In this document: one piece after another, positions 12,916-60,447 of the stretch
Position numbering within the stretch: position 1 is the first letter of the stretch
Layout of the letters: every line of letters starts with the position of its first letter
Source: Impatiens glandulifera
Lineage: Eukaryota; Streptophyta; Magnoliopsida; Ericales; Balsaminaceae
Assembly (NCBI RefSeq): GCF_907164915.1
Contig: NC_061867.1
Coordinates: 35,027,751-35,091,750, forward strand
Reading direction: 5' to 3'
Length of the DNA: 64,000 nt
Translations under genes and position numbers: made by a program
Notes under the pieces: model-generated
The model's input: only the letters and a program-made list of their open reading frames with translations
Told to the model about the DNA's origin: nothing
Databases searched by the model: none

Positions 12916-12967
12916 AAAAATTATAAATTGAATTCAATAATCACAAATGATGTAATCACATTTTAAA

Positions 12968-18714: not shown

Positions 18715-18935
18715 TGGTGATCTATGCAATTCCAGACGTAGATGATGTTCCATCCACCTTTTTAGATGATATTCAAAGTACTGAAAATATAAAATGGAAA
18801 GGTGCTATGGAAAATGAGATAAAATCTCTTTAGAAGAATGGGAAGAAGGCTATTTGTTGTAATTGGATCTTTACTAAGAAAAAAATATTTTTCTAGAAAA
18901 AATTGTTGTTCACTACAAGGCAAGTTTGTATATAT
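18715..18935 (+). pseudogene. pol: Copia reverse transcriptase N-terminal fragment, R copy 2
   Basis: This corresponds to 12690-12915. It keeps IKWKGAMENE and the following TAG, then KKAICCNWIFTKK, closer to the family pattern than copy 1 because the KKAI segment is intact. The frame is lost soon after. It lies at the right end of the repeat unit. Confidence 0.75.
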
Positions 18936-18992
18936 ACAAAAAAAATTATAAATTGAATTCAATAATCACAAATGATGTAATCACATTTTAAA

Positions 18993-19522
18993 GATTAGAG
19001 ATCTGTGGACAACGGAGGAACACACAGAAGATACCCGAACGAGCAAGCCATACTTGCTCACAACTGTTCTTATGAATTGCTTTCTTGCTTACTGTGTTTG
19101 TATATCAAGAGAGAGATAGAATCAAAGTATTGTCTAGCTGAATGATATTCTTCAATATACTGTAAGTTGAACAAAGTCTGTTCTGTTCAACAGTGAGCTA
19201 GCTTTGCAACTGTATTTGATTCTAAGAAAAGTATAGTGAATCCTTCTGGTGGTTAGAAGAAGGGGTGACGTAGGAGAGTTTTGCTCCGAACATCCATAAA
19301 CAACTCTGTGTGTCATTTTCATTCTATCATATTCTCCTTCATCGGTTCTTAGTTTCAAACCTGAGCAAACGTTTCCACACTTGAATCGTTCAAGAGTTTG
19401 CAAGGGTTTGTGAAGAATAGAAAGTGATATTAATCCTTAACAGGATTTCTATCAAACCGTTTTGCACGAAGTTGTCATCAATAGTTAGACTCCTATCTCT
19501 ATTGGTGCCACCGATCCTTTCA
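18993..19522 (+). mobile_element. Copia LTR 3' portion in unit R copy 3
   Basis: It matches copy 2's LTR part and ends CACCGATCCTTTCA at 19522, keeping the canonical CA end of an LTR that copies 1 and 2 have mutated. It contains the leader block GGGGTGACGTAGGAGAG. Promoter and U3 are absent. Confidence 0.75.
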
Positions 19523-22500
19523 GAATCTTTAAAATGCATTTGAATACGTAATGTTTTTTTCTAATTTCTTATAAAGAAAAAAAATAGGGCTACTCTTTTG
19601 TAAACCAAAGCTAGCCACAAATTTGAACCAAATTATAATTATTTTTAAAAAATGTTTGAATATAAGAAGCAAACATGGTTTGCTTTAGGTTAGGGTAATG
19701 TAACTAGTCAAATTATATAAAAAAAATTAATATAAACAACATATTTTAGCTTTAATTTTTAATATATTATTACTTTAAGATTAAGAAAATAAGTAATTAT
19801 AAATATACGTTATTAAATAAACTTAAATTAAAAAGTGTATAATATATGAAATTAAGTGATTTTTTATTTTATAGCCAACAACACGAGTATTTCAATAATC
19901 TCATTATATATTAATAGATCTAATACACAAATTATAAATTCTCACGTTCAATGTTGAATTGACTCTCACAATATGCGATCAAACATACAGCATACCACAA
20001 TATCAACGCCAAATTTTGAGATCGCGAGATCTACTCTAGAAAACCAATATTCTTGTATAAGTACTTGTCAAACATATAAATAAATATTAAAACTAACATT
20101 TAGTAAATTTATGTAACCATGAAGCAAAATATTATTTATTACAGTTACTATAATATTTCCCAAGTCAATCCTCACATAAATATGATTTTAAAAATCATAA
20201 TTGTTAACCCTTGACATATTTTCTCTTTAATGAATCATCGATAAAATATTAATAATTGCAAGGTCTCTATCACTTTCCATTTGTGATTATATATTTATCA
20301 ATTCAGTAAGTACAATTTAAAGGGAAATTTTCTTACACGACAAAAATAACTTAACAAAATAAATGACAACATACGACAAAAGAGTGAAAATGAATTGGAA
20401 TACAAAATTAAAATCGAAATCAAAATAATTAATTGTTTTAGAGAGGTTTAACTCATTTCATTTATTCACCAAATCGCGCAAAATACAAATTAGTGAAAAC
20501 AAAAAAGGAGGGGAACAAAAAAAAAAGAAGTTGGCCCAAGAGAAATACTAATTTCTTGGGATCCCTCTTGTTCTTGTTTAATCATCCTCGTTTCAAGGGG
20601 CTGTCGACTACTCCTTCCGAATATGTGATTTTAGAGGATGAATTTGCGTGGAAATTATATAAATATATATAAAATTTTATAAAGAATCTCCATTCCATCT
20701 TTGATTCCGTAGAGAATCGTCTTTGTCTCTCCACTCGAGTTGGTGCTTTGGTTAACTTTGATTCATCAAGGGTACAGTCCCAAAGCTTCTATCAAGTGGG
20801 CATGCCTCGCCCGAAAGTAGTTTTCATAGGGATGGTAAATTGTATTTGATTATAAGGAAATTAATCTAAAAATTAGATAAGATCGAATAGACTCAAGAAA
20901 CCACACGAATTAGATAACAAACATCTACTACTAGCACAAGTAATTTCCTCTTTCATAATCGTACTTCCACATTTGAGGCATCCTAAAAAACAACCAACAA
21001 AATAAAGAGATTTTGAGAAATATTAGATTGAATTATACACGTTTCCAAAAATAGAAGTGAGTGAACCCATTAAATATTTTCCATAGTAAATCATTAGACA
21101 CTTCAGATTTATAAATAAAGAATAACAAACCGATATTTTTGAAATTTAGGAATTTGTGCATGAGCACTATTAATATATTTCAAGTAAATGAACATTAAAG
21201 AGAATACTTATGGTTATGGTTCTACAAACTATTAAATATAACTTTAATTTTTATAAAATAAAAAATAATTTGCACAGTATTATTTTTAATTTATTAAATA
21301 TCAAAAGGTTTTTAACCATATTTTAACAAAACTTTAATAAAAATTATATAAATTTGTCATATGTATTTATAATTCAACATTAGTGAGTGCAATTATTTTA
21401 TATACATTGTAGCGTTCCTCTACTCCCTTTTTTCCTCTATTTCACTATTAATAAAAAAAATATATGAATTTATCATATGTTTAACTCCTATAAGAATTTG
21501 TCATATAATTAACTTCTTAATTTTTATTTTGATAAACAAAATGATATTATTTTTAAGTTTAAAATAATTTAACTATATAAGAGAATTATAATAAATATAT
21601 ATATATATTTGAAGTCAAATAACTTTTCTAAATAATTACATAAAGAAGATTAAAATATTAAGTAAACAAGTAATTATGTAATCTATATCACATCTCCATA
21701 ATTTAATTTGATCATATCAATAACTTAAATAAGAAAAAAAATAATTGTGTAATCTCTATGAGATCTCCATAATTTAATTTGATCATATCAACAATTTAAT
21801 TAAGAAAAATAATTAATTGTGTAATCTAAATGAGATCTCTATAATTTAATATGATCATATCAACTATTTAAATAAGTGGATAGATAAGAATTTTACATAT
21901 TCTAACTTACATAATTCATATTTCTTCACTAATGAGTGCTTTTAGAGAGAAAAGAGGGGGAACACTTTAGAGTCATATAACAAAAATATGTGGTGATTTT
22001 GCTTAGAAAAATCTAAGAACATATTTATATGAAATATGAGGGTTTTCCTTCCCAATATGCGCATGTGCCTAATTTGGTCCAACTGTGGGTGCATAAGCCA
22101 TTTCATCCCAACCTTTGTATGCAAGTTCTCAATCAAAGGTTGGGTCCGAGATATTCTATATGCCTAGAGTTGGGTCGAATTAGGATCACACGGTATATTG
22201 AGGAGCAAACCCTAATATTGCTGTATAAATATGTGTTTTGTATAAGCATACAATTTCGCAAATATTTGATTATATGCAACTAAAGTTTTGCATCTTCTTC
22301 TTTCACTATAAGCACTCACAAGATATCACTATCGTGCTAGTTTATTAATATTTGTGACTTGAGTTTTCACATAGATATTTTAGATTTATCATGTTTTTAA
22401 ATTCCGATCTAAGAGGTGACATGTTAAAAAATTGTTTGGATACATCTTCACTTCTTAACAATCTAACAAAATTTAAAGTGCATATTCTAGACTAAATCAA

Positions 22501-24764
22501 AAAAAATATAAGATATAATATAGTGTGTATACATTTTATTAAAGTTTCAGAGATAAATTATTAAAGATTAAAGTTCAATAATTTTTAATTTGTTAAACTA
22601 GTTACAAATATATTAAATTTATATTTTATATTCTAAATAATTTCTTTAAATTAGATTTATATTGGATGTATTAAATATTCTTGTCTAAAAACAGATTTTC
22701 AAACACAAACATGATCCCTAAGATGCTATGCTCACTCTTGTCTCACGAGTCAATCTTGCGAAAATAGATTATGAATTATGTTATAATATCTGCCCTTATA
22801 TGTTTATGTACCTTTCAATTATAAAACAACATGTACAACACTCATAGTTTGAATTAGGCTTTTATCATTAAATTAAAGGAGGTCCTGTGACTAAAAACTA
22901 ATAAAAATCATTTTTTTTGTTAATTGCTCCACAAAGGTCAGAAATAGAGATTTCCTTATTTATCCTTAAAAAATATATTATTTTCATTTATGCTTATATT
23001 TATAATTCAAATGTAATATTTCTCTAGAAAGCAGACATATTGGTTTTTATTAAATTTAACTTATACTTTAACTATCTATCAAATGTCTCTTGATTGTACT
23101 CCAATTTCCAATCTTGGTCATCAATCAATCGTATTGAAAACTAATAAATATACTTTCCATAGTTATTCATAATTTGAAGAAAATTAATAATATGACAAAT
23201 TTTACAACAATATGACATATAAAATATCATTATATAATATTATTAAATTATGTTGACTCATATGAGTTATGATTGGGCCTAAGTTTGCGGTGTATTAAAA
23301 TAAAATCCTAATTATTTGATATTAAGCTCATTAGACCTAGTTATGTGACCTAAAATATATTGTATTTGTTAGAGTTTTATTAATGCATAATATTTCTCAT
23401 TATTCATTTCTAAATTGTAATCTCATATTTTAACCAAGATATTTATCCCATTAGGCCCAGTTATTTGACCTAAAACTGATCAAGATTTGAGCTCTACTGA
23501 AACAACAAGATTTATGGGAATCGTTAAAGTTATAGTAGTAGAAATAAAAGTTGAAATAACCATTTTGGAGGAGAATGCACATTGAACATTATAATATTGT
23601 AACAACTTATCTAAGCACAACCTGAAATGAACAATATGCATATACTTACACTTGTTTTTGAATAATGTAACTAATAATGAGAACCATAAATAGTAACAAA
23701 AGAATACTCTAATGTAAACACTTCTAATTAGAATGTTCATAACACAATACAACATAAATTATGTGGAATATATTAAATGAAACTTTAATTGAAACACAAA
23801 AGAACTCATTTTCAAACAAAGGGATCATACTCAATTATAGAGACTATTTTATTGTGTTTTTTACATACACAAACCATTGTCATTGCATTACTTCCATCAA
23901 TTAAGGTGAAATAAAAATATATAATCAAACATATTAATTTTGAAATAATTAACCATATTAATTACTTACCAATTAATGCTTTAATAGATTGATTCATTAT
24001 CAATTTCTCCTGAAATCAAACAGAATATGTATAATATAGTTCATGCTAGGCCAACCAAAAAAACATTTAAGCTATTTTGTATGAGTTATAGATTGACAAA
24101 ATTAATTTACCAAACAAAAGTTTAATAATAAAATGAATTACTTATCAATAAATAAAAAGAAATATATTCTTTATGATTTGACGATGATAGTTCTTCACAT
24201 TCTATGCCTACACCATTATGGTCTGAAAAATACACTACATAAATATGTAGTGCTTAGTTTATTACTTGTTTTTTCTTAAGTAGATAAGATTTATACATCA
24301 ACTTCATAAAATTGAAACTTTATCGACCAATTTAGTTGAATGGATGATTATATGTATTAATAATACATTACCAAATTTAATATAAATACATTCGTTGATG
24401 ACGAAATAACTCTCGAGAGAGATTGATTTGATAACGCCAATTAGTCGAATGCCCAAGTACATATAGGTTTTACTAATATTTTTACAAAATGTATTACACT
24501 ACACACAGAATACAATGAGTACAATCATGATAGTTATATTTATGTAAAAACAAATAAATGACATACATAAAAAATGATTCAATAATTTTAAGTTTAGTTC
24601 AACATAGTTCAATATTTATAACTTTTATTCAATTAATTCAGTATTGTCATATATTTTATTTTGACATACATTAGTTATATATTTCAGTATCTCCTCCATT
24701 ATTCAATTATTGTGAACAGATCATGACGAGTTATTCAAAAACTAGCTCGGTGTGTTGATATGGT

Positions 24765-24985
24765 GACCTATGCAATTCCAGACGTAGATGATGTTCCATC
24801 TACCTTTTTAGATTTTATTCAAAGTACTGAAAATATAAAATGGAAAGGTGCTATGAAAAATGAGATGAAATCTCTTTAGAAGAATGAGAAGAAGGCTATT
24901 TGTTGTAATTGGATCTTTACTAAGAAAAAATGATTTTTCTAGAAAAAATTGTTGTTCACTACAAGGCAAGTTTGTATATATACAA
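24765..24985 (+). pseudogene. pol: Copia reverse transcriptase N-terminal fragment, R copy 3
   Basis: This is the third counterpart of the reverse transcriptase start, with DDVPSTFLDFIQSTENIKWK, the shared TAG and KKAICCNWIFTKK. The shared stop shows that the frame was dead before the unit was amplified. Confidence 0.75.
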
Positions 24986-25037
24986 AAAAATTATAAATTG
25001 AATTCAATAATCACAAATGATGTAATCACATTTTAAA

Positions 25038-32306: not shown

Positions 32307-32461
32307 TGTTGAGTCAAATTATTTTGACTAACAGTATTTTGATGATGAGTTTGTATAAAACTTAAATAAGAAAGAAACTAAGTCGTCTAATTGTTTTTGT
32401 GCAGGTGCATCAAAACATGCTAAGTTTGACTTAGCTTGAATCAGGTTCATTAGACGTATTG

Positions 32462-32880
32462 GTTATTAGACGTACGTAGTTAGACGTGTAGTCTAACAGA
32501 TACGCAGTTAGACGTGCAGTCTAACAGATACGTAGTTAGATGTGCAGTCTAACAGATATACAGTTAAACGTGTAGTCTAATAGATACGCAGTTAGACGTG
32601 CTGTCTAACAGATGCGTACTTAGACGTACAGTCTAATATATGTGCAGGTAGACGTGTAGTCTAACAGATGCGTAGTTAGACATGTAGTCTAACAGATACG
32701 TAGTTAGACGTGCAGTCTAATAGATACGTAGTTAGACATGCAGTTTAACAAACGTACTTAGATATGCAACAGATGTAGTTAGACGTGCATTCTAACAAAT
32801 GTAGTGAGACGTGTATTCTAACAGATACGTAGTTAAACGTGCAGTCTAATAGATATGTAGTTAGACGTGTAGTCTAACTC
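32462..32880 (+). repeat. Hairpin minisatellite, ~15 units of 28 bp
   Basis: The consensus unit is AACAGATACGTA followed by GTTAGACGTGCAGTCT. The core GTTAGAC-GTGCA-GTCTAAC is a 7-bp perfect inverted repeat with a 5-base loop. I counted about 15 units, several with a mutation in one arm. No reading frame is conserved through it. Confidence 0.9.
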
Positions 32881-33091
32881 CATTAGACGTGTGCTCTGAT
32901 GGATCTCGCTATTAGACATTGACATTTAACTCCCTTAGACTTTGCAGTCTAATGGAGCATGTCTAATGCATCCCTTCAACAGTTGTTTGATGTTAGCATA
33001 TGTCTACCCACGATCAACTAGTTGTACGCTACTCCTGATCCACTCATCTGTTCAGTCCGATACATCGGCTATTTGTATCCAATGAATGAAC

Positions 33092-33293
33092 GCCACGTAC
33101 GCGAATATTCCTTCCACTACTCGTTCAGTAAAGGACAGTTCCAGAAGAATATTCGGTGCACTACTAATTTGGTACGACCACGATCTATGTGCACAGAGCC
33201 TGTTGTACTCTTGTACTATGGAGGCTTTCCAATGGGCGCTTACTACGTGTCCATCTAGAAGATTCGACCGTTGGTGTCCTAACTCTATATATA
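33092..33293 (+). promoter_or_regulatory. LTR promoter of E1 left LTR
   Basis: GCCACGTACGC lies at about 33092-33102, TACGTGTC at 33244-33251 and TATATATAG at 33286-33294. The last is a good TATA box about 35 bases after the second ACGT motif, so transcription would be expected to start near 33320. ACGTGTC matches the core of plant ABA-responsive (bZIP) sites; that it acts so here is inference. Confidence 0.55.
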
Positions 33294-33877
33294 GATCCTC
33301 AAGGACAACGGTCGAGGTACGAACAAAAACAACAAGTCTTAAGAATTACCGGTCTTACCAGCCTTACCTGATATCAATACTCTTGCACTTACTAATTTGT
33401 ACATCTTCTTAAGTTCAAGAAAGAGAATTAGAATCTGTTTTATTGAGAAATATTCTTAATCATATTGTACGTTGAACAGAGCATGTTCAATTCGACAGTT
33501 AGCTAGCCAGTAAACTGTATTTGATTCAAAGAAGTATAGTGAAATCCTTCCAGTTGTGGAAGAAGGGGTGACGTAAGAGATTTTGCTCCAAACATCCATA
33601 AACAAGTTTTTGTGTCATTTACATTTTGTCTTTCATTCTCTCATTGGTTCATAGCTTCAAACTTGAGTAAACAGTTCCGCACTTGAATCTCTTCAAGAGT
33701 TTGCAAGAATTTGTGAAGGATAGAAAGTGATATTAATCCCTAACAAGATTTTTATCAAACCGTTTTCCAGAAGTTATCATCAATAACTAGACCCTCATCT
33801 CTATTGATTACACTGATCCTATCATAATCATTATATTAATAGTCATACGTCAGCATCCTTTAATAAAAGAAACGGTC

Positions 33878-33897
33878 ATACTCAAAGGTTTGAGTAT
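33878..33897 (+). other. Perfect 9-bp inverted repeat after the left LTR
   Basis: ATACTCAAA-GG-TTTGAGTAT lies 53 bases downstream of the left LTR end, where a retroelement's 5' leader would be. The same inverted repeat is kept in E2 at 55472-55491. Confidence 0.7.
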
Positions 33898-33985
33898 CTC
33901 ACTTCTGCAAATTTTCTTCTCTCTCTAAGAGTTCTTCATATGTCTCTTAGTATTCTTCAAGAAATCTCTGTCTTTTCATCTCGAA

Positions 33986-34552
33986 ATGGGTTCTATTGTT
34001 CCATCCATTCTTCAAATCGACTTTTTCTATGTGTCAATGATGGAAATTCCTGCTATGGTAACTATGTTTGAATCGCTCAAAGCTTCAGGTCTTGAGAAAT
34101 TCCTCAAGGCCCCCGTAGTCATTCAAGAACCTGAGGTTCGTGAACTTTTCAAATACGCTGAGCTATATGACGGCGTGCTCGTCGCAGCCAAAATATTTGA
34201 TGATATTGTTGTCTTCACTAAAGTGTCCTTCGCTCGATTCTTCAACCTTCAGACCAAGGGGATATCCGAGTTCCTAACGTCTTTAGAAGAAGTCCTATCT
34301 TAAATGAGACTTATCTTCTCCGATACTTTTCTTGATAGGACTCTAGTTCTTGTCAATAACTCTGGATTGCGGTCCTCTCTAAAAGTTGAGTTCTTCTTAC
34401 TCAACGACATCATTTCCAGATCCCTTCTGGCCAAGGGATGTTCTAACCATTACTCGAAGATGGTCTTCGAGATGATGATTGCTATCACCAAGGGGACAGC
34501 AATCAACTGGTCGAGGGTCATTTTCCGCAATATGGTGGGGATGTTTTAAAGG
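33986..34552 (+). pseudogene. Orphan ORF of unit E1
   Basis: One frame runs from ATG 33986 through a TAA at 34301-34303, resumes at once (ATG 34304), and ends TAA near 34547; weaker similarity to the family continues to about 34700 (YAALLSIF, VLDYIVQHRR). Features: a start IVPSILQIDFFYVSM, MVTMFESLKASGLEKFL, and a second half with FLLNDIISRSLL and MMIAITKGTAINWSRVIF. From memory this order (M-x-x-MF-x-xL-x-xSGL, then RLLNDI, then INW) resembles repetitive hypothetical proteins of Lamiales genomes; I could not check this. Function is unknown; no protease, polymerase or zinc-knuckle motif is present. E2 carries the same TAA, so the frame was already split before duplication, unless the stop is read through. 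Confidence 0.55.
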
Positions 34553-35003
34553 AGATCCCCTAGATATGCTGCTCTACTTAGCATATTTCTTCCTTCTATC
34601 ATTTCCAGTGTCGCGGGATCTGGTATTCTCATCAAATCATCGAGGGTCTTGAACTATCAAAATGTTCTTGACTACATTGTCCAACATAGGAGGCTCAAAT
34701 AAAAGAAAAGAAATCGAGAGCCCTTTCTGGCCGAAAATGATTAGTAGAAATCTTCCCTCCCGATGATGTTAAAAAGGGGGAAAATGAAAAGATAGGCCTT
34801 AGATTTAGGGGGAAAGAAAATCTTTTGATGTGTTGTTGCTATCCTTGAAAAAATTTCGTTTTATTTATCAATCATTTTATGTATCTCCTAATAATCTTGA
34901 AAATATGAATATATGATCTTTTGCTCATATTGTTGTGTTGTTTATTGATCATACTTATAGTTATCTTTTATTTAAGTTTTAATATCATCAAAAAGGAGGA
35001 AAT
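34553..35003 (+). other. E1 3' internal region and polypurine tract
   Basis: It contains a decayed continuation of the orphan ORF (to about 34700), purine-rich segments (AAAAAGGGGGAAAATG, TTAGGGGGAAAG) and a final tract AAAAAGGAGGAAAT (34990-35003) immediately before the TG of the right LTR, as expected for plus-strand priming. Confidence 0.6.
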
Positions 35004-36492
35004 TGCTGGGTCAAATTTATCATGACTATCGTTATTTTGATGATGTATGAGTAAAACTTAATTATGATGTTTAAATATGAATGAAGTTAAGTCGTCTAAT
35101 TGTTTCTATGCAAGTGCATCAGATTTGGCTAAGTTAGACGTGGTCTAAGCAGGCTAATTAGACGTGTAAGTCTAATAGATACGTAGTTAGACGTGTCAGT
35201 CTAACAGATACGTAGTTAGACGTGTTATTCTAATAGATACGTAGTTAGACGTGTCAGTCTAACAGATATGTAGTTAGTCGTGTCAATCTATCAGATACGT
35301 AGTTAGACGTGTTAGTCTAACAGATACGTAGTTAGACGTGTCATTCTAATAGATACGTAGTTAGACGTGTCAGTCTAACAAATACGTAGTTAGCCGTGTC
35401 AATCTATCAGATACGTAGTTAGACGTGCTAGTGTAACAGATACGTAGTTAGGTGTGTTAGTCTAACAGATACGTAGTTAGACGTGTCAGTCTAACAGATA
35501 CGTAGTTAGACGTGTCAGTCTAACAGATACGTAGTTAAACGTGTCAGTCTAATAGACATGAAGTTAGACATTGGCGTCTAACTCCTTTAGATTAGTCTGA
35601 AGTGATGGAAGGTTAGACGTTGCAGTCTAACTACATTAGACGTGGTAGTCTAATGGGATGCGTACTTAGACGGTGCAGTCTAACTCCATTAGAGGTGGTA
35701 GTCTAATGGATCTCTTTGATAGACGTTGACGTCTAACTCTATTAGACTTGGTGGTCTAATGGAGCACGTCTAATGCCTCACTTCAGCAGCCTTCTGAAGT
35801 TAGCATACGTCTACCCACGATCAACTAGTTGTACGTTACTCCTACTCCACTTTCTCTTGCAGATCAGTATGCCAGTTACTTGCATCAAATGAATGAACGC
35901 CACGTACGCAAATATTACTCTCACTACTTGTTTAGTACCAAACAGTTACAGAAGGATATCCCGCGCATTACCATTTAGTATGGCCACGATCCAGAAGTAT
36001 AGAGTTTTTTGTACTTTGTCCTTTAGGCGGCCATCCTATGGGCGCGTGCCACGTGTCCATGCAGAAGATTTGACCGTTGTACATCATATTCAAGTTTAAG
36101 AGAAAGAATAAAAAACAGTGTTTTAGCTGAGAGATATTTTTAATCATATTGTAAGTTGAACAGAGTATGTTCTGTTAAATAGAGTGTTAGTTATTCAGTG
36201 AACTGTATTTGATTCAAGAAGTTTAGTGAAATCCTTCCGGTTGTTGGAAGAAGGGGGACCATCCATAAATATCTTGATGTGTTCTTTCCTTCTGTCTTTC
36301 ATTATTCATTAGTTCAAGGCTTCAAACCCAAACAAATAAACAATTCTGCACTTGGATCGTTTTAAGTGTTTGTGAAGGTTTGCGGAGAATAGAAAGTGAT
36401 AGTAATCCCTATCAAAATTTCTATCAAACTGTTTTTCTGTAGTTGTCATTAATAGTTAGACCACGTCTATATTGATTACACCGATCCTATCA
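35004..36492 (+). mobile_element. Right LTR of E1 (subtype with 29-bp units), promoter deleted
   Basis: It starts TGCTGGGTCAAAT and ends CCTATCA. It carries about 14-15 units of the 29-bp array, then hairpin-bearing unique sequence, GCCACGTACGC and CCACGTGTCC (36049-36058). Compared with E2's right LTR about 110 bases are missing right after GACCGTTG (36077), removing the TATA-like region and transcription start. The leader stem block is also shortened (GAAGGGGG then CATCCATAAA). Confidence 0.8.
35156..35585 (+). repeat. Hairpin minisatellite, ~14 units of 29 bp
   Basis: The unit core is GTTAGAC-GTGTCA-GTCTAAC (7-bp stem, 6-base loop), one base longer than the 28-bp subtype. A four-unit higher-order pattern (ATTCTAAT, CAGTCTAAC, CAATCTATC, TAGTCTAAC type endings) occurs twice between about 35220 and 35450. 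The first unit ends ATTAGAC...GTCTAAT, a paired change in both arms. Confidence 0.9.
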
Positions 36493-37211
36493 ATGGTAAT
36501 ATAGTTTTTAAATATTTTCTCAACATTAGTTCCACATTTTATTAAATCAATTTACATAAAAAGTTCTTAAAAAATAGATATTTTATTTAGTTTATTTAGA
36601 ATTTATTTCTAGTGACTTAACTCATTCATCAATAAACACTTGATTTTCAGTTTGATCAAATACACCCTTAGTTTATATTTTGACTTTTGAGCCTTATTTG
36701 TGCATGTGTACCATAATTTGTATAGAGGAAAGAAAAGTTGTTGAAGAAGCAACAAGGCAAGCTCTTCTTCTTGATAATATGATGACTATTATGGATGGGT
36801 TTGATGCAGGACGCTCTCTTCGTGAGTGGTATCATTATGTGTTTCTTAAAATAAATTGGTGGTTTCTCATTGAGGCTTGTATTCATATACAAATTCATTA
36901 TAGCATCATTTCAAATAGGGACAATGTTATGTTTTGACAATATTTTGGAACCTAGATAATATATTTTCAAGGTTATCCTTGTGGGATTTAAGACACATAA
37001 TGTACAGTATAAGAAAATATTATACTTAGAGGAAATGTACATTATAAAGACAACTATATGGACCTACATTAGATATATCAGGACTTCAAATACAAATTAC
37101 ATTGGATGTTACGGAAGGTGCAAAGTTTTGCTTGACCTTCATGTAAGCCTGTAAGGTCAGCCTGCTGGAGCTTTTTGCTTCTTGCATCGCATGAGCAAGT
37201 TTAATGTATAC
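36493..37211. repeat. Flank duplicated with E1 and E2
   Basis: This recurs almost unchanged at 58158-58872 directly after E2, so it was copied together with the LTR unit. It contains an 85-codon plus-strand frame (36680-36937, present also at 58345-58602) with VVEEATRQALLLDNMMTIMD, which I do not recognise and which lacks family landmarks. No other gene is visible. Confidence 0.85.
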
Positions 37212-37960: not shown

Positions 37961-39176
37961 CAAATTATAAATATATATATTACAAAAAGTATTACATTAC
38001 AAAATTTAATAAGTTATTTCAAAGAGTGTTGTATTACGTAATTTTATAGGATAATATAGTTTTTGTTGAATATATTTTTCATAAAAAATAAAGTTTATTG
38101 CTTCATTTTTATATATTTGTTATATTGAATATTGCGAAAGAAATTGTTGTATATAATTTAATAAGTTATTACAGTTATGGTGAATATATTTTTATTATTA
38201 ATAGATTCATCTTATTGAAATTATTATTGCAAAACAATGGATTTATTAATAAAAATATATATATTACAAAAATTTTGACAAATACATATTCACCATGGTT
38301 AGTTAAAATTTTAGAAAAAGTTAATTTTCTACATTATATCTAGATTTCGTGAAATTGATGTTGAATTAATTATTGTAAACACTAATGCAAATTTGCAACC
38401 GGGTATTTTCAATGTTTAGGTGTTATTACAAATTTGGTTACGAAGTTCCAAACTAATGCTAAGTCAATTGCCAAATTCAGTTTGTAATGCAAAAATAGTT
38501 CTTGGGAACTTGTTACAAATAAACAGTTTTTTTAGATCAACAAGTTTTCTTGTCTTAATCTTTTCGATAATATAGCCTCTTGTTTCATTGCATCTACAAC
38601 AACTTTTTTCAAATTATTCTTATTAAAAAAATGGGTAAAGTGTGCATCATTAGAATCCTCACTTATAACATAGTCATCTTCATCTACCAGATTAGAGGTC
38701 TTCTAATTCAACTTCAACATCTCTAGTAATATCATTATGAATTTCATTAACAATATGATCATCAACTTCAACATCAGTTTTTTCACCAACGTTATAATCA
38801 ACAGAATTATAATGTGTGACAATCTTCTTCAATCACCCCCTTCATACACTATAGTGAATGGCATAATTAAGATGAGTTATTTTATCAATTTCAGTACCAA
38901 AAAAAAAATTAAAAATAATATCCTTCATTATCATATATGTAGATTCATTATTTACTCCAAAGAAAATGTAATTTTTTACTTTTTTAATCCAACTTAATTT
39001 TTTTTCCGGAAATGTGTACAAACGCAAGACATTCAAAAAATCTTAAATGACTTATTGAGTGAGTGATATTGCAATAGGCATTTTGAGATATCTTTCTTTT
39101 ATTGAAGTTGTAAATCTCATATTTTGAATATAGAAAACTGCTTCAAGACTTTTTACGTGGACAACATCTTCTAATA
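37961..39176. other. AT-rich spacer, no gene recognised
   Basis: Short frames on both strands are driven by composition. A minus-strand frame (38842-39036) with IFFGVNNEST faintly recalls FAR1/MULE-type proteins but is too short and degenerate to call. Confidence 0.4.
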
Positions 39177-42100
39177 AATATTTCCCAAGTCAATCCTCAC
39201 ATAAATATGATTTTAAAAATCATAATTGTTAACCCTTGACGTATTTTCTCTTTAATGAATCATCGATAAAATATTAATAATTGCAAGGTCTCTATCACTT
39301 TCCATTTGTGATTATATATTTATCAATTCAGAAAGTACAATTTAAAGGGAAATTTTCTTACACGACAAAAATAACTTAACAAAATAAATGACAACATACG
39401 ACAAAAGAGTGAAAATGAATTGGAATACAAAATTGAAATTGAAATCAAAATAATTAATTGTTTTAGAGAGGTGTAACTCATTTTATTTATTCACTAAATC
39501 GCGCAAAATACAACTTAGTGAAAATAAAAAAGGAGAGGAACAAAAAAAAGAAATTGGCCCAAGAGAAATACTAATTTCTTGGGATCCCTCTTGTTCTTGT
39601 TTAATCATCCTCGTTTCAAGGGGGCTGCCGACTGCTCCTTCCGAATATGTGATTTTAGAGGATGAATTTGCGTGGAAATTATATAAATATATATAAAATT
39701 TTATAAAGAATCTCCATTCCATCTTTGATTCCGTAGAGAATCGTCTTTGTTTCTCCACTCGAGTAGGTGCTTTGGTTGACTTTGATTCATCAAGGGACCA
39801 GTCCCAAAGCTTCTATCAAGTGGGCATGCCCCGCCCGAAAGTAGTTTTCATAGGGACGGTAGATTGTATTTGATTAGAAGGAAATTAATCTAAAAATTAG
39901 ATAAGATCGAATAGACTCAAGAAACCACATGAATTAGATAACAAACATCTACTACTAGCACAAGTAATTTCCTCTCTCATAATCGTACTACCACATTTGA
40001 GGAATCTTAAAAAACAACCAACAAAATAAAGAGATTTTGAGAAATATATATTGAATTTATCATATATTTAACTCCTATAAGAATTTGTCATATACTTAAC
40101 TTCTTAATTTTTATTTTGATAAACAAAATGTTATTAGTTTTAAGTTTAAAATAATTTAACTATATAAGAGAATTATAATAAATATATATAAATATATTTG
40201 AAGTCAAATAACTTTTTTATATAATTACTAAAAGAAGATTAAAATATCAAGTAAACAAGTAATTATGTAATCTATATGACATCTCCATAATTTAATTTGA
40301 TCATATCAATAACTTAAATAAGAAAAAAAATAATTGTGTAATCTTTATGAGATCTCCATAATTTAATTTGATCATATCAACAATTTAATTAAGAAAAATA
40401 ATTAATAGTGTAATCTAAATGAGATCTCCATAATTTAATTTGATCATATGAACTATTTAAATAAGTGGATAGATAAGAATTTTACATATTCTATCTTACA
40501 TAATTCATATTTCTTCACTAATGAGTGCTTTTAGAGAGAAAGTAGGAGGAACACTTTAGAGTCATATAGCAAAAATATGTGGTGATTTTGCTTAGAAAAA
40601 TCTAAGAACATATTTATATGAAATATGAGGGTTTTCCTTCCCAATATGCGCATGTGCCTAATTCGGTCCAACTGTGGGTGCATGAGCCTTTTCAACCCAA
40701 CCTTTGTATGTAAGTTCTCAATCAAAGGTTGGGCCGAGATATTCTATATTCCTAGAGTTGGGTCGGATTAGGATCACACGTATATTGAGGAGCAAACCCT
40801 AATATTGCGTATAAATATGTGTTTTGTATAAGCATACAATTTCGCAAATATTTGATTATATGCAACTAAAGTTTTGCATCTTCTTCGTTCACTATAAGCA
40901 CTCACAAGATATCACTATCGTACTAGTTTATTAATGTTTGTGACTTGAGTTTTCACATAGATATTTTAGATTTATCATGTTTTTAAATTCCGATCTAAGA
41001 GGTGACATGTTAAAAAATTGTTTGGATACATCTTCACTTCTTAACAATCTAACAAAATTTAAAGTGCATATTCTAGACTAAATCAAAAAAAATATAAGAT
41101 ATAATATAGTGTGTATACATTTTATTAAAGTTTTAGTGATAAATTATTAAAGATTAAAATTCAATAATTTTTAATTTGTTAAACTAGTTACAAATATATA
41201 AAATTTATATTTTATATTCTAAATATTTCTTTAAATTAGATATTGGACGTATTAAATATTCTTGTGTAAAAACAGATTTTCAAATACAAACATGGTCCCT
41301 AAGATACTAAGCTCACTCTTGTCTCACGAGTTAATCTTGCGAAAATAGATTATGAATTATGCTATAATATCTGCCCTTATATGTTTATGTACCTTTCAAT
41401 TATAAAACAACATGTAAAACACCCATAGTTTGAATTAGGCTTTTAACATTAAATTAAAGAAGGTCCTGTGACTAAAAATTAGTAAAAATAATTTTTTGTT
41501 AATAATTTGTAGTTCATGTCGAATGGCTCCACAAAGGTCAAACATAGAGATTTCCTTATTTATCCTTAAAAAATATATTATTTTCATTTATGCTTATATT
41601 TATAATTCAAATGTAATATTTCTCTAGAAAGAAGACATATTGGTTTTTATTAAATTTAACTTATACTTTAACTATCTATCAAATGTCTCTTGATTGTACT
41701 CCAATTTCCAATCTTGATCATCAATCGTATTGAAAACTAATAAATATACTTTCCATACTTATTCATAATTTAAAGAAAATTAATAATATGACAAATTTTA
41801 TAATAATATGACATTTAAAATATCTTTATATAATATTATTAAATTATGTTGACTCATATGGGTTTTGATTGGGCCTAAGTTCGCGGTGTATTAAAATTAA
41901 ATACTAATTTTTTGATATTAAGCTCATTAGACCTAGTTATGTGACCTAAAATATATGGTATTTGTTAGAGTTTTGTTAACACATATAATATTTCTCATTA
42001 TTCATTTCTAAATTGTAATCTCATATTTTAACCAAGATATTTATCCCATTAGGCCCAGTTATGTGACCTATAACTGAGCAAGATTTGAGCTCTACTGAAA

Positions 42101-43560
42101 CAACAAGATTTATGGGAATCGTTGAAGTTATAGTAGTAGAAATAAAAGTTGAGATAACCATTTTGGAGGAGAATGCACATTGATCATTATAATATTGTAA
42201 CAACTTATCTAAGCACATCCTGAAATGAACAATATGCATATACTTACACTTGTTTTTGAATAATGTAACTACTAATGAGAACCATAAATAGTAACAAAAA
42301 GAATACTCTAATGTAAACACTTCTAATTATAATGTTCATAACAAAATACAACATAAATTATGTGGAATATATTTAATGAAACTTTAATTGAAACACAAAA
42401 GAACTCATTTTCAAACAAAGGGATCATACTCAATTATAGAGACTATTTTATTGTGTTTTTTACATACACAGACAATTGTCATTGCATTACTTCCATCAAT
42501 TAAGGTGAAATAAAAATATAAAATCAAACATATTAATTTTGAAAGAATTAACCATATTAATTACTTACCAATTAATGTTTTAATAGATTCATTATGAATT
42601 TCTCCTGAAATCAAACAGAATATGTATAATATAGTTCATGCCAGGCCAACCAAAAAAAACATTTGAGCTATTTTGTATGAGTTATAGATTGACAAAATTA
42701 ATTTACCAAACAAAAGTTTAATAAAAAATGAATTACTTATCAATAAATAAAAAAAATCTATTCTTTATGATTTGACGATGATAGTTCTTCACACTCCTCA
42801 ATGCGTACACCATTACGGTCTGAAAAATACACAATATGTAGTGCGTAGTTTATTACTTGTTTTTTCTTAAGTAGATAAGATTTATACATCAACTTCATAA
42901 AATTGAAACTTTATAGACCAGTTTAGTTGAATGGATGATTATTGTATTAATAATACATGACCAAATTTGATATAAATATATTCGTTGATGACGAACTAAC
43001 TCTCGAGAGAGATTGATTTGATAACGCCAATTAGTCGAATGCCCAAGTACATATCGGTTTTATTAATATTTTTACAAAATGTATTACAATACACAAAAAA
43101 TAATGAGTGCAATCATGATAGTAATATTTATGTAAAAACAAATAAATGACCTACATAAACAATGATTCAATGATTTTAAGTTTAGTTCAACATAGTTCAA
43201 TATTTATAACTTTTATTCAATTAATTCAGTATTGTCATATATTTTATTTGGACATACATTAGTTATATATTTCAGTATCTCCTCCATTATTCAATTGTCG
43301 TGAACAGATCATGACGAGTTATTCAAAAACTAGCTCGGTGTGTTGATATGGTGACCTATGCAATTCCAGTCGTAGATGATGTTCCATCCACCTTTTTAGA
43401 TATCAATCAAATTACTGAAAATATAAAATGGAAAGGTGCTATGAAAAATGAGATGCAATCTCTTTAGAAGAATGAGAAGAAGGCTATTTGTTGTGATTGG
43501 ATCTTTACTAAGAAAAAAAGATTTTTCTAGAAAAAATTGATGTTCACTACAAAGCAAGAT
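39177..43560 (+). repeat. 6 kb repeat unit R, copy 4 (dispersed, truncated)
   Basis: It matches the R unit from about position 1159 of the unit (AATATTTCCCAAGTCAATCC) to its reverse transcriptase end. It lacks the LTR part and has an internal deletion of about 440 bases near 40050 (equivalent to about 14995-15436 in copy 2). Unlike the tandem copies it continues past CACTACAA-GCAAG into more reverse transcriptase. Confidence 0.9.
39483..39758 (-). other. Conserved minus-strand open frame in R copy 4 (unrecognised)
   Basis: A 91-residue counterpart of the frame at 14436-14702, again open across QRRFSTESKMEWRFF and TRMIKQEQEGSQEIS, with a different C-terminus after a frame difference in a purine run. 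Family and function are unknown. Confidence 0.25.
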
Positions 43561-44060
43561 TTGTAGTTAAAGACTACGCTCAGAAGGAAGGAGTTAATTA
43601 TAATGATATTTTCTCTTTTTGATAAATACTTGTCCATTAGAATTTCATTGTCCTTAGTGGCGTAGATGAATTTGGAGCTAGCTCAACTAGATGTGAAACC
43701 TGCATTCCTACACAGTCATTTGAATGAGGAAATTTACATGTCTCAACCAGATGGATTCAAAGTTGCAAATAAAGAAATTTGGCTTTGAAAGTTGAATAAG
43801 TTAGTGTACGAGTTGAAAAAATATCCTAGAAAATGGTACAAGTGACTTGAAATGCTTATGATGGAGCATAAGTATAGAAGAAACAAATTCAATTATTGTG
43901 TGTATTTGCATAAACTACAAGATGAGTCTTATATCTATATATTATTGTTTTAATGCTTATGATATACTGTAAGCATTAAAAAATCAATATGAAATTGACA
44001 AATTTAAAGCTCAATTGAGTAGAAAGTTCGAGATGAAAGACATGAGAAAATTAAAATTTA
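43310..44060 (+). pseudogene. pol: Copia reverse transcriptase fragment, R copy 4
   Basis: It begins like the R-unit fragments (IKWKGAMKNEMQSL, TAG, KKAICCDWIFTKK) and goes on through VVKDYAQKEGVNYNDIFS, LAQLDVKPAFLHSHLNEEIY, MSQPDGF and LNKLVYELKKYPRKWYK. These match copia RT blocks including the first catalytic Asp (LDVKxAFL). At least five stops or frame changes occur, and the YVDD block is not recognisable. It is the best evidence that the R unit derives from a copia element. Confidence 0.8.
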
Positions 44061-46660: not shown

Positions 46661-47220
46661 ATTAAGATACTGAAAAAATATCAAAATTTTGTATAGGATG
46701 AAGACTTTCAACAAGAATTTAACAAGATCAATGATTATTTAAAATCCCCTCCCATACTCATGTCGCCCAGAACCAGCATTCATCTCATCATATATCTTAC
46801 TATAATAGACATAGCCATGGGAAGTCTGTTGGCTCAAGAAAACGAGAACAAACTCGAAACGGCTATGTATTACATTTGTAAGAGGACGAGTGGGTGTGAA
46901 CTTAATTACACGCCAGTTGAGAAAATCTGTTGGGCTTGACATGGGTCAACAAAATATCGAGACACTACTTGCAAGCCCACTCCATCAAGTTGGTATCAAG
47001 ACTAGACCCGGCCCATTTCTTATTCCAACGAATTCTTCTTTCACCAAGGCTATCCAAATGATGAAGATGTTATACGAATACGATATAGCATACACAATAA
47101 AAAAATATTTTAAAGGTAGCATTGTTGCGAACATCCTTACTGACCAAGCCAATATTGTTAAGTTAGAAGACGAACTCGAATTCCTCGATTTGGAAATTCT
47201 GAATATAACTTTAGACACAT
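46661..47220 (+). pseudogene. pol: Gypsy RNase H (G1)
   Basis: In three frames one can read DIAMGSLLAQENENKLETA, YYICKRTSGCELNYTPVEKI, then HYLQAHSIKLVSRLDP and finally LYEYDIAYTIKKYFKGSIVA. These are successive landmarks of gypsy RNase H (LAQ, ELNYxPxEK, RHYxxxHxxxxxSxxDP, KGSxVA). Frameshifts lie near 46930 and 47000. The part from 46957 on is copied at 58873-59122. Confidence 0.8.
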
Positions 47221-47267
47221 AGAAACTAATGTTTGGAGGATCTTCTAGTAGTTGACCTGAAAGGGAC

Positions 47268-47614
47268 GTATAACCCAATATTCAATCAAACTCAAATATT
47301 CCATCACCAATAATGAGGCTAAATACGAGGCATTCCTATGGGGTCTCAAGATGGCATATGAAAACGAGGCAACAAAGCTAGAAGTTGTTTGTGACTCTAA
47401 CTTTGTTATATCCCAAACTAATGGTACCTGGCTAGTAAAAGGGGAAAATATGAAACCTTACCACTCCCACTTAACCAAACTCATGAACAAATTTAATCAA
47501 ATATCATTTGTTAACGCTCTAAGAAGTAAAAATCGCTTCGTGGACGCCCTGGCTACTTTGGCATCCATTTCTAAAATTCCCGACAGAATTAAATTCAAAC
47601 CTCTAAAAATCTAA
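47268..47614 (+). pseudogene. pol: Second (archaeal-type) RNase H of gypsy Tat lineage (G1)
   Basis: From GGACGTATAACC the frame reads YSIKLKYSITNNEAKYEAFL, then WGLKMAYENEATKLEVVCDS, VISQTNGTW and, near the end, NRFVDALATLAS. NNEAEYEA, the DSxLVxxQxxG motif and the final ADALAxLAS motif are diagnostic of the additional RNase H of Tat elements. Glu and Asp of the active site are still recognisable (EAKYEA, CDS). In the last motif the usual ADAL is VDAL. It ends with a natural-looking stop at 47612-47614; integrase is absent. Confidence 0.85.
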
Positions 47615-47657
47615 CAAAAACAACGACCTTCTTTTCAATTAGGAGAATTCACTTCCT

Positions 47658-48529
47658 ATATTAGACTTGGTGGTCTAATGAAGGATGTCTAATGCCTCGC
47701 TTCAGCAGCCGTCTGAAGTTAGCATACGTACCCACGATCAACTAGTTGTACGCTACTCCTGCTCCACTTTCTCTTGCAGATCTGTACGCTAGCTACTTGC
47801 ATCAAATGAATGAACGCCACGTACGCAAATATTTCTTCCACTACTTCTTCAGTACCGGAAAGTTACAGAAGGATATCCCGCGCACTACATTTTAGTACGG
47901 CCACGATCCAGAAGCACAGAGTGTGTTGTACTTTGTCCTTTAGGCGGCCATCCTATGGGCGCGTTCCACGTGTCCATACAGTAGATTTAAATGTTGGTGT
48001 CCTTCCACTATATTTAGACGCTCAAGGACAACGAACGAATCTCTCTCGGTCTACCAGTTACTCTTCTCACATTATGAATTACTCATGCAGTTAATGATTA
48101 TACGTCATATTCAAGTTCAAGAGAGAGAATCAAAAACACTATTTCAGCTGAGAGATATTCTTAATCATATTGTAAGTTGAATAGAGTTTGTTATGTTCAA
48201 CAGAGTGTTAGATATTTAGTGAACTGTATTTGATTCAAGAAGTTTAGTGAAATCCTTCCGGTTGTTGGAAGAAGAAGTGACATAGGAGAGTTAGCTTCGA
48301 ACATCCATAAACATATTTTGTGTTCTTTCCTTCTGTCTTTCATTATTCATTGGTCAAGGCTTCAAACCCAAACAAACAATTTCGCACTTGAATCGTTTCA
48401 AGTGTTTGTGAAGGTTTGCGAAAAATAGAAAGTGATAGTAATCCCTAACAAGATTTCTATCAAACCGTTTTTTCGTAGTTGTCATCAATAGTCATACATC
48501 CGTCTCTATTGATTACACCGATCCTATCA
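47658..48529 (+). mobile_element. 5' LTR of copia element C1, left part missing
   Basis: It begins inside the LTR at TATTAGACTTGGTGG and ends CTATCA at 48529, followed after AT by the primer-binding site. It has GCCACGTACGC, CCACGTGTCC (47966-47975), a TATA-like CTATATTTAG (48008-48017) and the leader stem CTTCC/GGAAG. It groups with the right LTR of the E units, not the left. The missing 5' part would include the minisatellite. Confidence 0.85.
47966..48017 (+). promoter_or_regulatory. LTR promoter of C1
   Basis: A palindromic G-box-type CCACGTGTCC lies about 35 bases before CTATATTTAG, a weak TATA element. The first ACGT box, GCCACGTACG, is at 47807-47820. The arrangement is shared with the E LTRs. 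Confidence 0.5.
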
Positions 48530-48531
48530 AT

Positions 48532-48543
48532 TGGTATCAGAGC
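48532..48543 (+). other. Primer-binding site (initiator Met tRNA)
   Basis: TGGTATCAGAGC follows the LTR end CA after AT. This 12-mer is the usual plant copia site complementary to the 3' end of initiator methionine tRNA. It is intact. Confidence 0.95.
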
Positions 48544-48603
48544 TCTGTTTTCTATTCTCAAGAATTAAGAACCCGAATCATATCTAGAGGTAAACAAATC
48601 CCT

Positions 48604-49762
48604 ATGTTCTCAAAAGAAAATTTTGAATGCTGGAAGATGAGGATGCAAACGCGTTTGGCTGCTATCGATTATGACATTCTGTATGTCATCTCTAATGGTC
48701 CTATAAAAATTAAAAAGCCAAGATGCGAATGGACGACTGAAGAAAAGATGATGAACAACTTAGACTACATCGCCAAAGACATCCTATACAAGTCTCTCAA
48801 CATGGATGTGTTCAGCAAGATCAAGTCATGCTCATCCTCTAAAGAAATCTTGGAGAAGCTCATTCAACTGTATGGCTATGATGTTCAAACAAAGAAGAAT
48901 TTAATTGAGCAAAAGGTTCTTATAAGTGTTGTAAATAAGTTCAAATGGGCCGATAGCGATTCAGAGGATTCATCTGGTGAAAGCGATAATGAAGGTGTCA
49001 CATGCGTGATGGAAGACGACAAATCAAATGTGACTCTTCCTCGGAAAGTTTTACAAGAGATGAATTAACTACTGCAATCAATGACATGGTTAGTGAGTAC
49101 AAGAAGTTATCAGACTCATTTAATGAAATGAAATTAAAATATGAATCTAATAATTATTCTTCATCTCAAGTTTCTGAACCAGAATTTTTTGAAAACATGG
49201 TAGAAGTGCTCTCATCTGAGAATGAGATGCACAAAGAAAAAGTTCAAAATTTGTCTTCTGAAAACCAACGTTTGACATATGTGGTAAGTTTCTGGACAAA
49301 GTCTGGAGAGGCTGTCAAACAGAAAATCATTATGCTGAGGCCTACTGGATGCAAATCCAGTTTACGATATGACAGTAATGACTCAGGCATGTTCCGTAAA
49401 AAGTTAAACTCATCAACAGACAAGTTTAAGCCTATAAACTTTGTCGGAGGGAGTTTAACTGATACTGGAACTGATCCAAGATGTGATGAGATAACTTTAA
49501 AGGATGAAATTACTTATATTCCGCAAACTGTTAACTAGCTAAAACCTAAAAAGAAAGCAGCTAATAAGTCTGGAAAACTAAAACCTGAAAAGAAGTCAAG
49601 GAGCTTTAAACAAAAATCATCCTCTAAAGTTAAGGGAGCAGCTGCTAGTAGGAAGACGTCTGCTAAGTCTAAATTATACGCACTTATTACTACACAAAAA
49701 GGGAAGTCCATCAAAATATCTCAAATATGGATTCCTAAGGGACTGACTGATCGAGGACCCTA
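48604..49762 (+). pseudogene. gag: Copia gag polyprotein (C1), internally deleted
   Basis: The start MFSKENFECWKMRMQTRLAA is the usual copia gag opening (F-x-x-W-K-x-R-M), followed by CEWTTEEKMMNNLDYIAKD and KSLNMDVFSKIKSCSSSKEI of the UBN2-type domain. After TKKNLIEQKVL the sequence jumps to FKWADSDSEDSSGESDNEG, which normally lies after the zinc knuckle, so the C-terminal half of the capsid-like domain and the CCHC knuckle appear deleted. A frameshift near 49020-49040 moves to the frame of 49002-49538 (DELTTAINDM coiled coil, FWTKSGEAVKQ, then lysine-rich KPEKKSRSFKQK). A TAG at 49537 replaces a Trp codon kept in C2. Confidence 0.8.
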
Positions 49763-49818
49763 GTGAATGTGGGTACCAAAAAGTTTGTAAATATGTTTTT
49801 GTGTAGGTTGACTGCCTG

Positions 49819-50157
49819 GAGGATTCAGTTTGGTATCTGAACAATGGATGTTCTAGACTCATGACTGGAGAAAAACCACTTGTAACTGATATAACAAAAT
49901 GTTCAGGTCCTAAGATTACTTTCGAAGATAACCGCAAGGGTAAGACCATGGGTAAGGGTAAGATTATCCATGGTAATCTAACCATCAACAACGTGCTACT
50001 TGTTAAAAACTTGTGTTATAATTTGATAAGTATTAGTCAATTATGTGATAATGGATGTTTGTTTGATTTTCAAACTCATGCATGCATAGTTAAAGATCAG
50101 CAGGGCAATGTTCTATTAACTAGAAGTAGGGTAGGAAACTCTTATAAAATGAACTGA
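49819..50157 (+). pseudogene. pol: Copia protease region (C1)
   Basis: The motif around 49831 reads WYLNNGCSRLMTG. Copia proteases have WxxDSG, so the catalytic Asp is Asn (49840-49842) and the Ser is Asn; C2 still has Asp here. Downstream KGKIIHGNLTINNVLLVKNL and CYNLISISQLCDNGCLFDF are typical of the segment between protease and integrase (NVLyVPxLxxNLlSisQLcD). TGA at 50155-50157 interrupts the pol frame. Confidence 0.85.
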
Positions 50158-51192
50158 AAAACTAAAATGTCAAACCCCATATGCATGATCACCAAAACTG
50201 ATCAAAACTGGTTGTGGCATAAGAGATTAAATCATTTCAATTTTAAAACCATTAACAACATTTATTCGCATAACTTAGTTCTTAGTTTACCAAATTTGAA
50301 GTTTGTAAAGGACAAGGTCTGTTCTGCTTGCTAGTTAGGAAAGTAGAGCAAATCATCATTCAAAAGTAAAGGGAAATTTCAATCCAGTCGATGCTTGGAA
50401 CTTTTACATATGGATCTGTTTGGTCCAATTCCTATAAAGAGATTGGGGGGAATGAGATTTACCCTAGTCATTATTGATGATTTTTCACGTTTTACATGGG
50501 TTGTATCTTTTCCTTCAAAGGATCAGACTGTTGAGAATTTTATTAAACTTCTTAGAAGGATTCAAAACCAAAAATATTTAAGTGTTATTCAGATCAGAAG
50601 TGATAAGGGAACCGATTTCACCAATAGACGACAAACTTCTTACTTCGAGGAATCTGGTATTAGGAACAAGTTGTCTAGTGCTAGAACTCCACAGCAAAAT
50701 GGTATTGTTGAGAGAAGAGTCAAGACACTAAAGGAAGCAGTGAGATCGATGCTTGCCGACTCAGGTGTTCCTCAGAAGTTTTGGGAAGAAGCCATAAACA
50801 CAGCATTTTATACACAAAATCGGTCAATAATCAACAAACGCTTTGACAATACACCTTTTGAATTGTTTTATGGAAGAATTCATATAGTTTACTACTTTAA
50901 AGTATTCGGGTGTAAGTGTTTTATTCATAACAATGGAAAAGAATATTTGACCGCTTTTAATCCTAAAGTAGATGCTGGAATCATTCTAGGTTACTTATCA
51001 GTTAGTAAGACCTTCAAAGTATACAATAATCGTACACAAACTGTTGAGGAATTCTTTCATGTTATTTGTGATGAATCTGTTGAAAACAATTTAGTTGATC
51101 CCATCGACCCTACTAACAGATTAGAAGTGGCTTGTCTTGAATCTAATAGTGAGGATGAAGCTCATGTTCAAAGGGATTATCCGTCCGATTAA
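50158..51192 (+). pseudogene. pol: Copia integrase (C1)
   Basis: The zinc-binding part reads LWHKRLNH (His at 50218 and 50233) and CSAC (Cys at 50320 and 50329), broken by TAGs at 50332 and 50344 that replace likely Gln codons. The catalytic core keeps all three acidic residues: Asp in MDLFGP (50413), Asp in RSDKGTDF (50602) and Glu in NGIVERR (50710), with the expected 35-residue spacing between the last two. The C-terminal part has FKVFGCKCFIHNNGKEYLTA and AGIILGYLSVSKTFKVYN. It ends at TAA 51190, where C2 has a Gln codon. Integration chemistry would be possible only for the open 50395-51192 stretch, which lacks the zinc domain. Confidence 0.9.
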
Positions 51193-53666: not shown

Positions 53667-53805
53667 TGTTGGTTCAAATTAGTTTGACTAACATTATTTT
53701 AATGATGTATTAATAAAACTTTGATTAAAAATGAAGTTAAGTCGTCTAATTGTTTTTGTGCAGGTGCATCAAAAATATGATAAATTAGACATGAACTGAA
53801 ATAGG

Positions 53806-54480: not shown

Positions 54481-54841
54481 ATTAGACTTGTGCTCTGATG
54501 GATCTCGCTATTAGACGTCGACATCTAACTCCCTTAGACTTTGCAGTCTAATGGAGCATGTTTAATGCCTCGCTTCAGTAGTTGTTTGAAGTTAGCATAC
54601 GTCTACCCACGATCAACTAGTTGTACGCTACTCCTGATCCACTCATTTGTTCAGTCCAGTACGCCGGCTATTTGTATCCAATGAATGAACGCCACGTACG
54701 CGAATATTCCTCCCACTACTTATTCAGTAAAGGACAGTTCCAGAAGAATATTCGGCGCACTACTAATTTGGTACGGCCACGATCCATGTACACAGAGCCT
54801 GTTGTACTCTTGTACTATGGAGGCTTTCCAATGGGCGCTTA

Positions 54842-60445: not shown

Positions 60446-60447
60446 AT

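Follow-up and report, generated by a model that had tools for sequence, protein, structure and literature searches.

Palindromic minisatellite arrays in long terminal repeats of Impatiens glandulifera, probable RM boxes of an old env-type Sirevirus

Introduction

Why should a plant retroelement carry, within its long terminal repeats (LTRs), tandem arrays of short units that are each centred on an inverted repeat? The question is raised by a stretch of 64,000 nucleotides of the Impatiens glandulifera genome (contig NC_061867.1, positions 35,027,751 to 35,091,750 of the forward strand), hereafter the window, whose content is retroelement DNA and tandem segmental duplications. An earlier note on this DNA had described four LTR arrays of inverted-repeat units, and had read two-sided changes in the arms as a possible sign of a constraint on pairing, with a protein dimer site among the options and gene conversion of whole variant units as the simpler alternative. 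The analysis reported here suggests that the arrays are probably palindromic RM boxes, decayed regulatory dyads from the U3 region of an old Sirevirus of the env type. The boxes form dyads, perfect or nearly so, about a TTAGAC-GTCTAA core, and they decay without base-pair covariation. All coordinates are those of the window, and the element parts described lie on its plus strand.

Palindromic units in four LTR arrays

Four arrays were delimited, two of 28-bp palindromic units (array A, 32473-32878; array C, 53812-54477) and two of 29-bp units (array B, 35158-35569; array D, 56753-57133). In all four the unit is centred on the arms GTTAGAC and GTCTAAC, which a loop of 5-6 bases separates; this bears out the inverted-repeat units described earlier, including the arm sequences quoted for them. 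The perfect core TTAGAC-N5-GTCTAA is present in 24 copies in the window against 0.02 in shuffles, and a wider scan (at most one core mismatch, loops of 0-8) returned 96 boxes, against 0-4 in five Markov-simulated 64-kb sequences. These boxes are located in the array stretches (63, with bounds slightly wider than the array coordinates), in the remaining LTR parts or linkers (32, some overlapping) and elsewhere (one, at 3080).

Downstream of the arrays, a 53-bp composite unit is found in which a G-C-ended box alternates with an A-T-ended one, the arms of the latter reaching CCATTAGAC/GTCTAATGG in some copies. Tail boxes follow array A (32883-32952, 53-bp composite type, identified by eye, the second box also in the box scan), array B (35613-35759, 53-bp composite units with alternating outer pairs, box scan), array C (54483-54551, box scan) and array D (57178-57324, box scan). 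Linker boxes detected in the same scan between pol and the env position (53134-53323, with a copy at 63439-63611) have other flanks and loops of 0-8; seven matches, two of them overlapping others, were counted in 53040-53400 against 0.028 expected. ATTAGAC...GTCTAAT units occur within arrays (B 35152, D 56747, C 53865), and further ones are present in the tails and the pol-env linker, so that the A-T-ended variants previously reported in units and after the arrays were found in both places.

Array A is a paralogue of C, and B one of D: positions 32473-36079 match 54063-57644 at 92.9% identity, and 36077-37210 match 57746-58872 at 96.7%. There are two array lineages, each present twice, and the candidate reading as four independent arrays was rejected because the arrays are two pairs of segmental duplicates. 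The 65 or so potential hairpins counted in the earlier note are therefore not independent, only two lineages being represented. Among the other duplications of the window, a unit of about 6 kb is present in three tandem copies about 97% identical, plus a partial copy downstream (7302-25037; 39164-43565).

Element structure and Sirevirus features

LTR E (47656-48529, cut off immediately ahead of its last tail box) and LTR D (56598-58157, 29-bp subtype) are 87.7% identical, are read as a 5' and a 3' LTR, respectively, and are taken as those of one old element. LTR C (53667-55418, 28-bp subtype) is a solo LTR in the linker of this E-D element, with the 5-bp target-site duplication TAATC on both sides (53662-53666 and 55419-55423). 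LTR A (32307-33824, 28-bp subtype, from sequence comparison with its TG start read) is a chimeric copy of LTR C: the first 150 bp or so are 79.7% identical and the part behind the array 95.1%, a jump that puts the joint either at the beginning of the array or within its first part. LTR B (35004-36492, 29-bp subtype, from sequence comparison) is read as a 3' LTR. A scheme in which arrays A and B mark the two LTRs of one short element was rejected, since C is a solo LTR with its target-site duplication inside a longer element, A is a chimeric copy of C, and both B and D are preceded by a polypurine tract (PPT). A TATA-like box lies downstream of the boxes in three of the four array-bearing LTRs (at 57656 in LTR D), the boxes being upstream of it by 409 (A), 409 (C) and 524 bp (D).

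Some further observations on these LTRs were made. About 100 bp of LTR D (57644-57746), the TATA-like box among them, are missing from LTR B (36071-36079). In LTRs A and C, judged by eye, this box sits between the two arms of an imperfect inverted repeat (about 33270-33310 and 54865-54915; CGACCGTTG-GTG-TCCT ... AGGACAACGGTCG), which is less well kept in LTRs D and E, again by eye. Several rearrangement ends fall at or near boxes (32470; 47656; 59572; 63364): LTR A has its chimera joint there, LTRs E and F are truncated there, and a 1.6-kb difference in length between the duplicates has its joint about 75 bp before the linker boxes.

The Sirevirus-type junction of 5' LTR and primer-binding site (PBS), CAATTGGTATCAGAGC, is found at 48528-48543 and again at 60444-60459, in both cases as an exact 16-mer of the form CA-ATTGG-TATCAGAGC. 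Before the 3' LTRs, two extra PPT-like octamers AGGGGGAA stand at 34775 and 34807 (34775-34814) and two at 56369 and 56402, so that the multiple PPT octamers that Sireviruses have near the 3' LTR are present in an A-final form, as stated for the upstream octamers of ToRTL1 and Tnd-1 (PMC2829016). The terminal copies differ: AGGAGGAA is accompanied by an inverted-repeat arm and an AT/TG attachment site at 34982-35005, and AAGAGGAA by AT/TG at 56588-56599. The octamer AGGGGGAA occurs six times in the window, four of them in linkers and two elsewhere (3153, 21955), and the canonical AGGGGGAG is absent from the plus strand of the window. At the border of PPT and 3' LTR, the AT/TG site is combined with a 12-bp inverted repeat whose arm matches at 11/12 positions in B and 12/12 in D, the right arm lying about 30 bp inside the LTR. 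These elements share the PBS junction, the AT/TG site and an inverted repeat by the PPT with Sireviruses, for which junction, PPT and inverted repeat are listed as hallmarks (PMC2829016). Degenerate copia gag, Pol_BBD, integrase and reverse transcriptase pieces lie in several frames at 48442-52942, with an RNaseH-like end noted by eye; in a Pfam scan of nine broken frame pieces, three were above the curated cut-off (Pol_BBD; integrase core with retroviral SH3; RVT_2), one matched copia gag below it and five gave no relevant match. Open frames lie at the env position (55523-56143). Judged by these sequence features, the elements have the appearance of degenerate Sireviruses (Ty1/copia) of the env type. 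Directly before the truncated LTR E, pieces at 46700-47655 resemble, by eye, a retroelement reverse transcriptase/RNase H frame.

Pairing and covariation of the arms

From 77 extracted unit rows, 68 were scored and nine left out as edge, indel or degenerate cases, including A 32440. Both arms have the consensus sequence in 33 of the 68, 36 are fully Watson-Crick paired, and 45 are fully paired when G-U is counted. The 476 pair cells hold 60 base changes, 36 of which are C>T or G>A; the terminal C of the right arm, in a CAG context, has become T in 16 of the 68 units, giving G-T in 11, A-T in three and C-T in two. Two-sided Watson-Crick changes are confined to three of the 476 cells, all A-T (B 35152, its duplicate D 56747, and C 53865), and amount to two events; with right arms shuffled within arrays 1.7 such cells are expected (p 0.22). 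On a MAFFT alignment of 56 distinct rows, in which row 35122 is misaligned in the right arm, the covariation score was 0.094 against 0.094 with shuffled arms (235 of 500 shuffles at least as high), and double-change cells numbered 2 against 1.9. The structure pairs 91.3% of the cells of this alignment, against 21-33% when slid by one to three columns, because the consensus is palindromic, and no covariation is needed for such a value. When one duplicate of each pair was retained, A-T outer pairs numbered 2/40 in C+B (1.1 expected), 2/38 in C+D (0.84), 1/30 in A+B (0.27) and 1/28 in A+D (0.18), with Fisher p values of 0.18-0.30 across the four combinations. Covariation within the arrays was therefore rejected, the two-sided changes being at chance level, and the pairing constraint that the earlier note had suggested from them was not supported. 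The changes also come close to having a single origin in one variant unit: those in the arrays are two events, and the A-T boxes of the tails, by position the second box of the 53-bp unit, are one lineage.

Since the segmental duplication, the arms of 13 matched A/C units differ at 10/182 sites and the rest of the unit at 11/178 (p 0.83), and those of 15 matched B/D units at 18/209 against 13/214 (p 0.35); the B/D linkers alone differ at 2/130 sites, so that linkers, not arms, are the slow part. Three two-sided arm differences have arisen in this time, none of them compensatory. Loss of pairing has been tolerated: units B 35265 and B 35381 each have three broken pairs and have a variant right arm in common, which suggests that a broken unit was probably copied.

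Of 14 boxes outside the arrays (hand-listed with duplicates collapsed, the box at 53237 being taken as A-T by its longer loop), 11 have a Watson-Crick outer pair (5.7 expected, p 0.001), and so have all 5 lineages to which they reduce (1.8 expected, p 0.033). As the box list and the lineages were chosen after the data had been seen, the result is suggestive only, and a pairing constraint on the outer pair is weakly indicated, solely across box classes.

Function of the boxes and alternative explanations

The most plausible role of the boxes, from their position and symmetry, would be that of a protein-dimer site in a cis-regulatory region. In the active element, a transcription factor of the host, dimeric or two-headed, would have bound each dyad and acted on the promoter lying downstream, with array length tuning promoter strength. 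The arrays would have grown via slippage or unequal crossing-over of whole units, and segmental duplication would then have turned two original arrays into two pairs. Since the dyads are predicted to form hairpins in RNA across U3, small RNAs and silencing may arise from them as well, which has been reported for Sireviruses of maize. Of what had been proposed earlier, the LTR location, the palindromy and the dimer-site option are thus retained, whereas pairing as a selected property is unsupported in the window and the argument from two-sided changes is given up.

Several observations weigh against the identification with Sirevirus RM boxes and decayed regulatory dyads. The core is TTAGAC-GTCTAA, unlike the CGG-CCG of published Sirevirus RM boxes, and the boxes start 145-165 bp into the LTR with the TATA-like box farther off than published (PMC2829016); LTR B is without such a box. 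CpG observed/expected is 1.17-1.44 in the four arrays with tails against 0.74 in the window, but G+C is only 39-41%, so that by content the arrays are no CpG island, which the RM clusters are expected to be. The env-position frames showed no recognisable family in the domain scan, the first yielding 38 homologue candidates, none of them significant. A C-rich integrase signal is found near the LTR 3' end in 17 of 21 Sireviruses (PMC2829016), and none was noticed near the LTR ends here, by eye and with no formal motif test. The excess of fully paired units over arm shuffles (36 against 28.7, p 0.0006) stems from a co-occurrence, above expectation, of clean left with clean right arms (Fisher p 0.009; p 0.015 in B+C, 0.14 in C+D and 0.10-1.0 in single arrays). 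Clean linkers show no such association (p 0.30 and 0.45). This co-occurrence may be explained by heterogeneity of damage or by copying of damaged units; as a trace of either joint damage or joint constraint, it is not fully accounted for. Finally, double changes of any kind at the outer pair number five cells against 1.88 expected (p 0.015, duplicates uncollapsed), two of the five being unpaired C-T and duplicates of each other.

It is possible, if rather improbable, that the boxes are mainly hairpin templates for host small RNAs that silence the element. The predicted RNA of arrays C and D with their tails, to which folding was applied, is strongly structured (z -16.6 against 20 shuffles for C; z -12.4 against 100 shuffles for D), the palindromes of maize Sireviruses are small-RNA hotspots (PMC10760457, PMC5311732), and the excess of C>T and G>A among the arm changes fits methylated DNA. 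Such templates would account for the targeting, but not for the retention of the boxes by the element, and a hairpin RNA serving as small-RNA template may rather be a second role compatible with the first. It is less probable still that a chance palindrome was spread by slippage and unequal exchange as a neutral minisatellite without function. The near-equal rates of change in arms and in the rest of the unit since the duplication, and the slow B/D linkers, would agree with this. However, the same core stands between other flanks in linker and tails, far above expectation in the linker, and the position of the boxes agrees with that of published Sirevirus RM boxes (PMC2829016). Selection of the stems as RNA hairpins or DNA cruciforms with compensatory change is very unlikely, since the strong predicted folding, the excess of fully paired units, the outer-pair double changes before collapsing of duplicates and the paired outer bases of non-array boxes are set against compensatory cells at chance level, a covariation score equal to that of shuffles, no compensatory change since the duplication, the persistence of units with three broken pairs, and linker boxes of loop 0 that are unable to form the full stem.

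Comparison with known systems

Of 21 Sireviruses, 13 are described as having palindromic RM boxes. These lie mainly in the upper LTR half, and nine elements with an env gene have them upstream of ENV too; 12 of the 13 have a CGG-CCG core, Tnd-1 being the published exception (PMC2829016). The arrays described here are like them in being palindromes in high copy number in the upper half of the LTR, upstream of TATA, and again in the linker before ENV. They differ from them in their regular 28/29-bp tandem arrangement, their 5-6 bp loops and their low G+C (PMC2829016). No TCGGAC...GTCCGA box is present in the window, where one half-matching pair lies in pol (63168).

A tentative and rather doubtful reading, from comparison of the box sequences, is that the box of this family derives from an ancestral RM box by CpG-to-TpA change: GTCGGAC...GTCCGAC would have become GTTAGAC...GTCTAAC by four matching transitions, with the dyad kept and the methylation-proof core re-amplified in tandem. 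One element that invites it is Usier, whose host belongs to the wheat group. The 7-bp arms of the Usier RM box GTCGGACGTCCGAC are identical to those here except that each CG of Usier reads TA in the present family (PMC2829016, Table 3). That box keeps a CpG core and has no loop, unlike the arrays with their loops of 5-6 bp, and corresponds to the zero-loop linker box TTAGACGTCTAA (PMC2829016). A palindrome flanking BvMSat05 of sugar beet, GTCGGACGAGTCCGAC, has the same CpG-form arms as Usier and also lies beside minisatellite arrays; the beet minisatellites and adjacent regions are reported to have no homology to the beet retrotransposons analysed, so that no LTR link is shown (PMC2820488). 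A text search of the literature returned the CpG-form motifs only in these two papers, and the TTAGAC form in six papers whose titles indicate no relation. For a random 7-bp arm, the chance of agreeing at 7/7 positions with any of 12 published arms, CpG decay allowed, is about 0.001 at window composition, in a comparison framed post hoc. Intermediates of CpG loss could be represented by two linker boxes that combine TA with TG, both of them found in each duplicate; against this, the units retain CpGs in loop and linker, and the comparison of boxes gives no direction of change. If true, a transposon would have escaped CpG silencing of its regulatory cores via symmetrical CpG loss, and this loss would be covariation at the level of the family, not among units.

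A scan of viral contigs for the palindrome gave none with more than two sites among the 80 loci listed of at least 120 stretches, and the PBS junction was found in 14 stretches. Tnt1 of tobacco is not counted among the Sireviruses and is not known to be related in sequence. Its BII boxes are comparable as LTR-promoter boxes, and are said to bind defence-induced factors (PMC3316501). The LTRs of maize Sireviruses share with those described here a palindrome-rich regulatory region with hairpin potential, and their palindromes are cited as small-RNA hotspots, with the core CACCGGAC-GTCCGGTG, unlike TTAGAC-GTCTAA, and with small-RNA mapping reported for maize only (Bousios 2016, as cited in PMC10760457 and PMC5311732). 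Promoter function and host silencing may meet in Sirevirus palindromes, and a family with CpG-less arms but a surviving dyad would allow a direct test between dimer binding, RNA hairpin and methylation target. The arrays further illustrate that copied and segmentally duplicated minisatellite units can yield false covariation signals if counted as independent. Palindromic LTR repeats are already known in Sireviruses, and a difference in the family described here is their TTAGAC-GTCTAA core.

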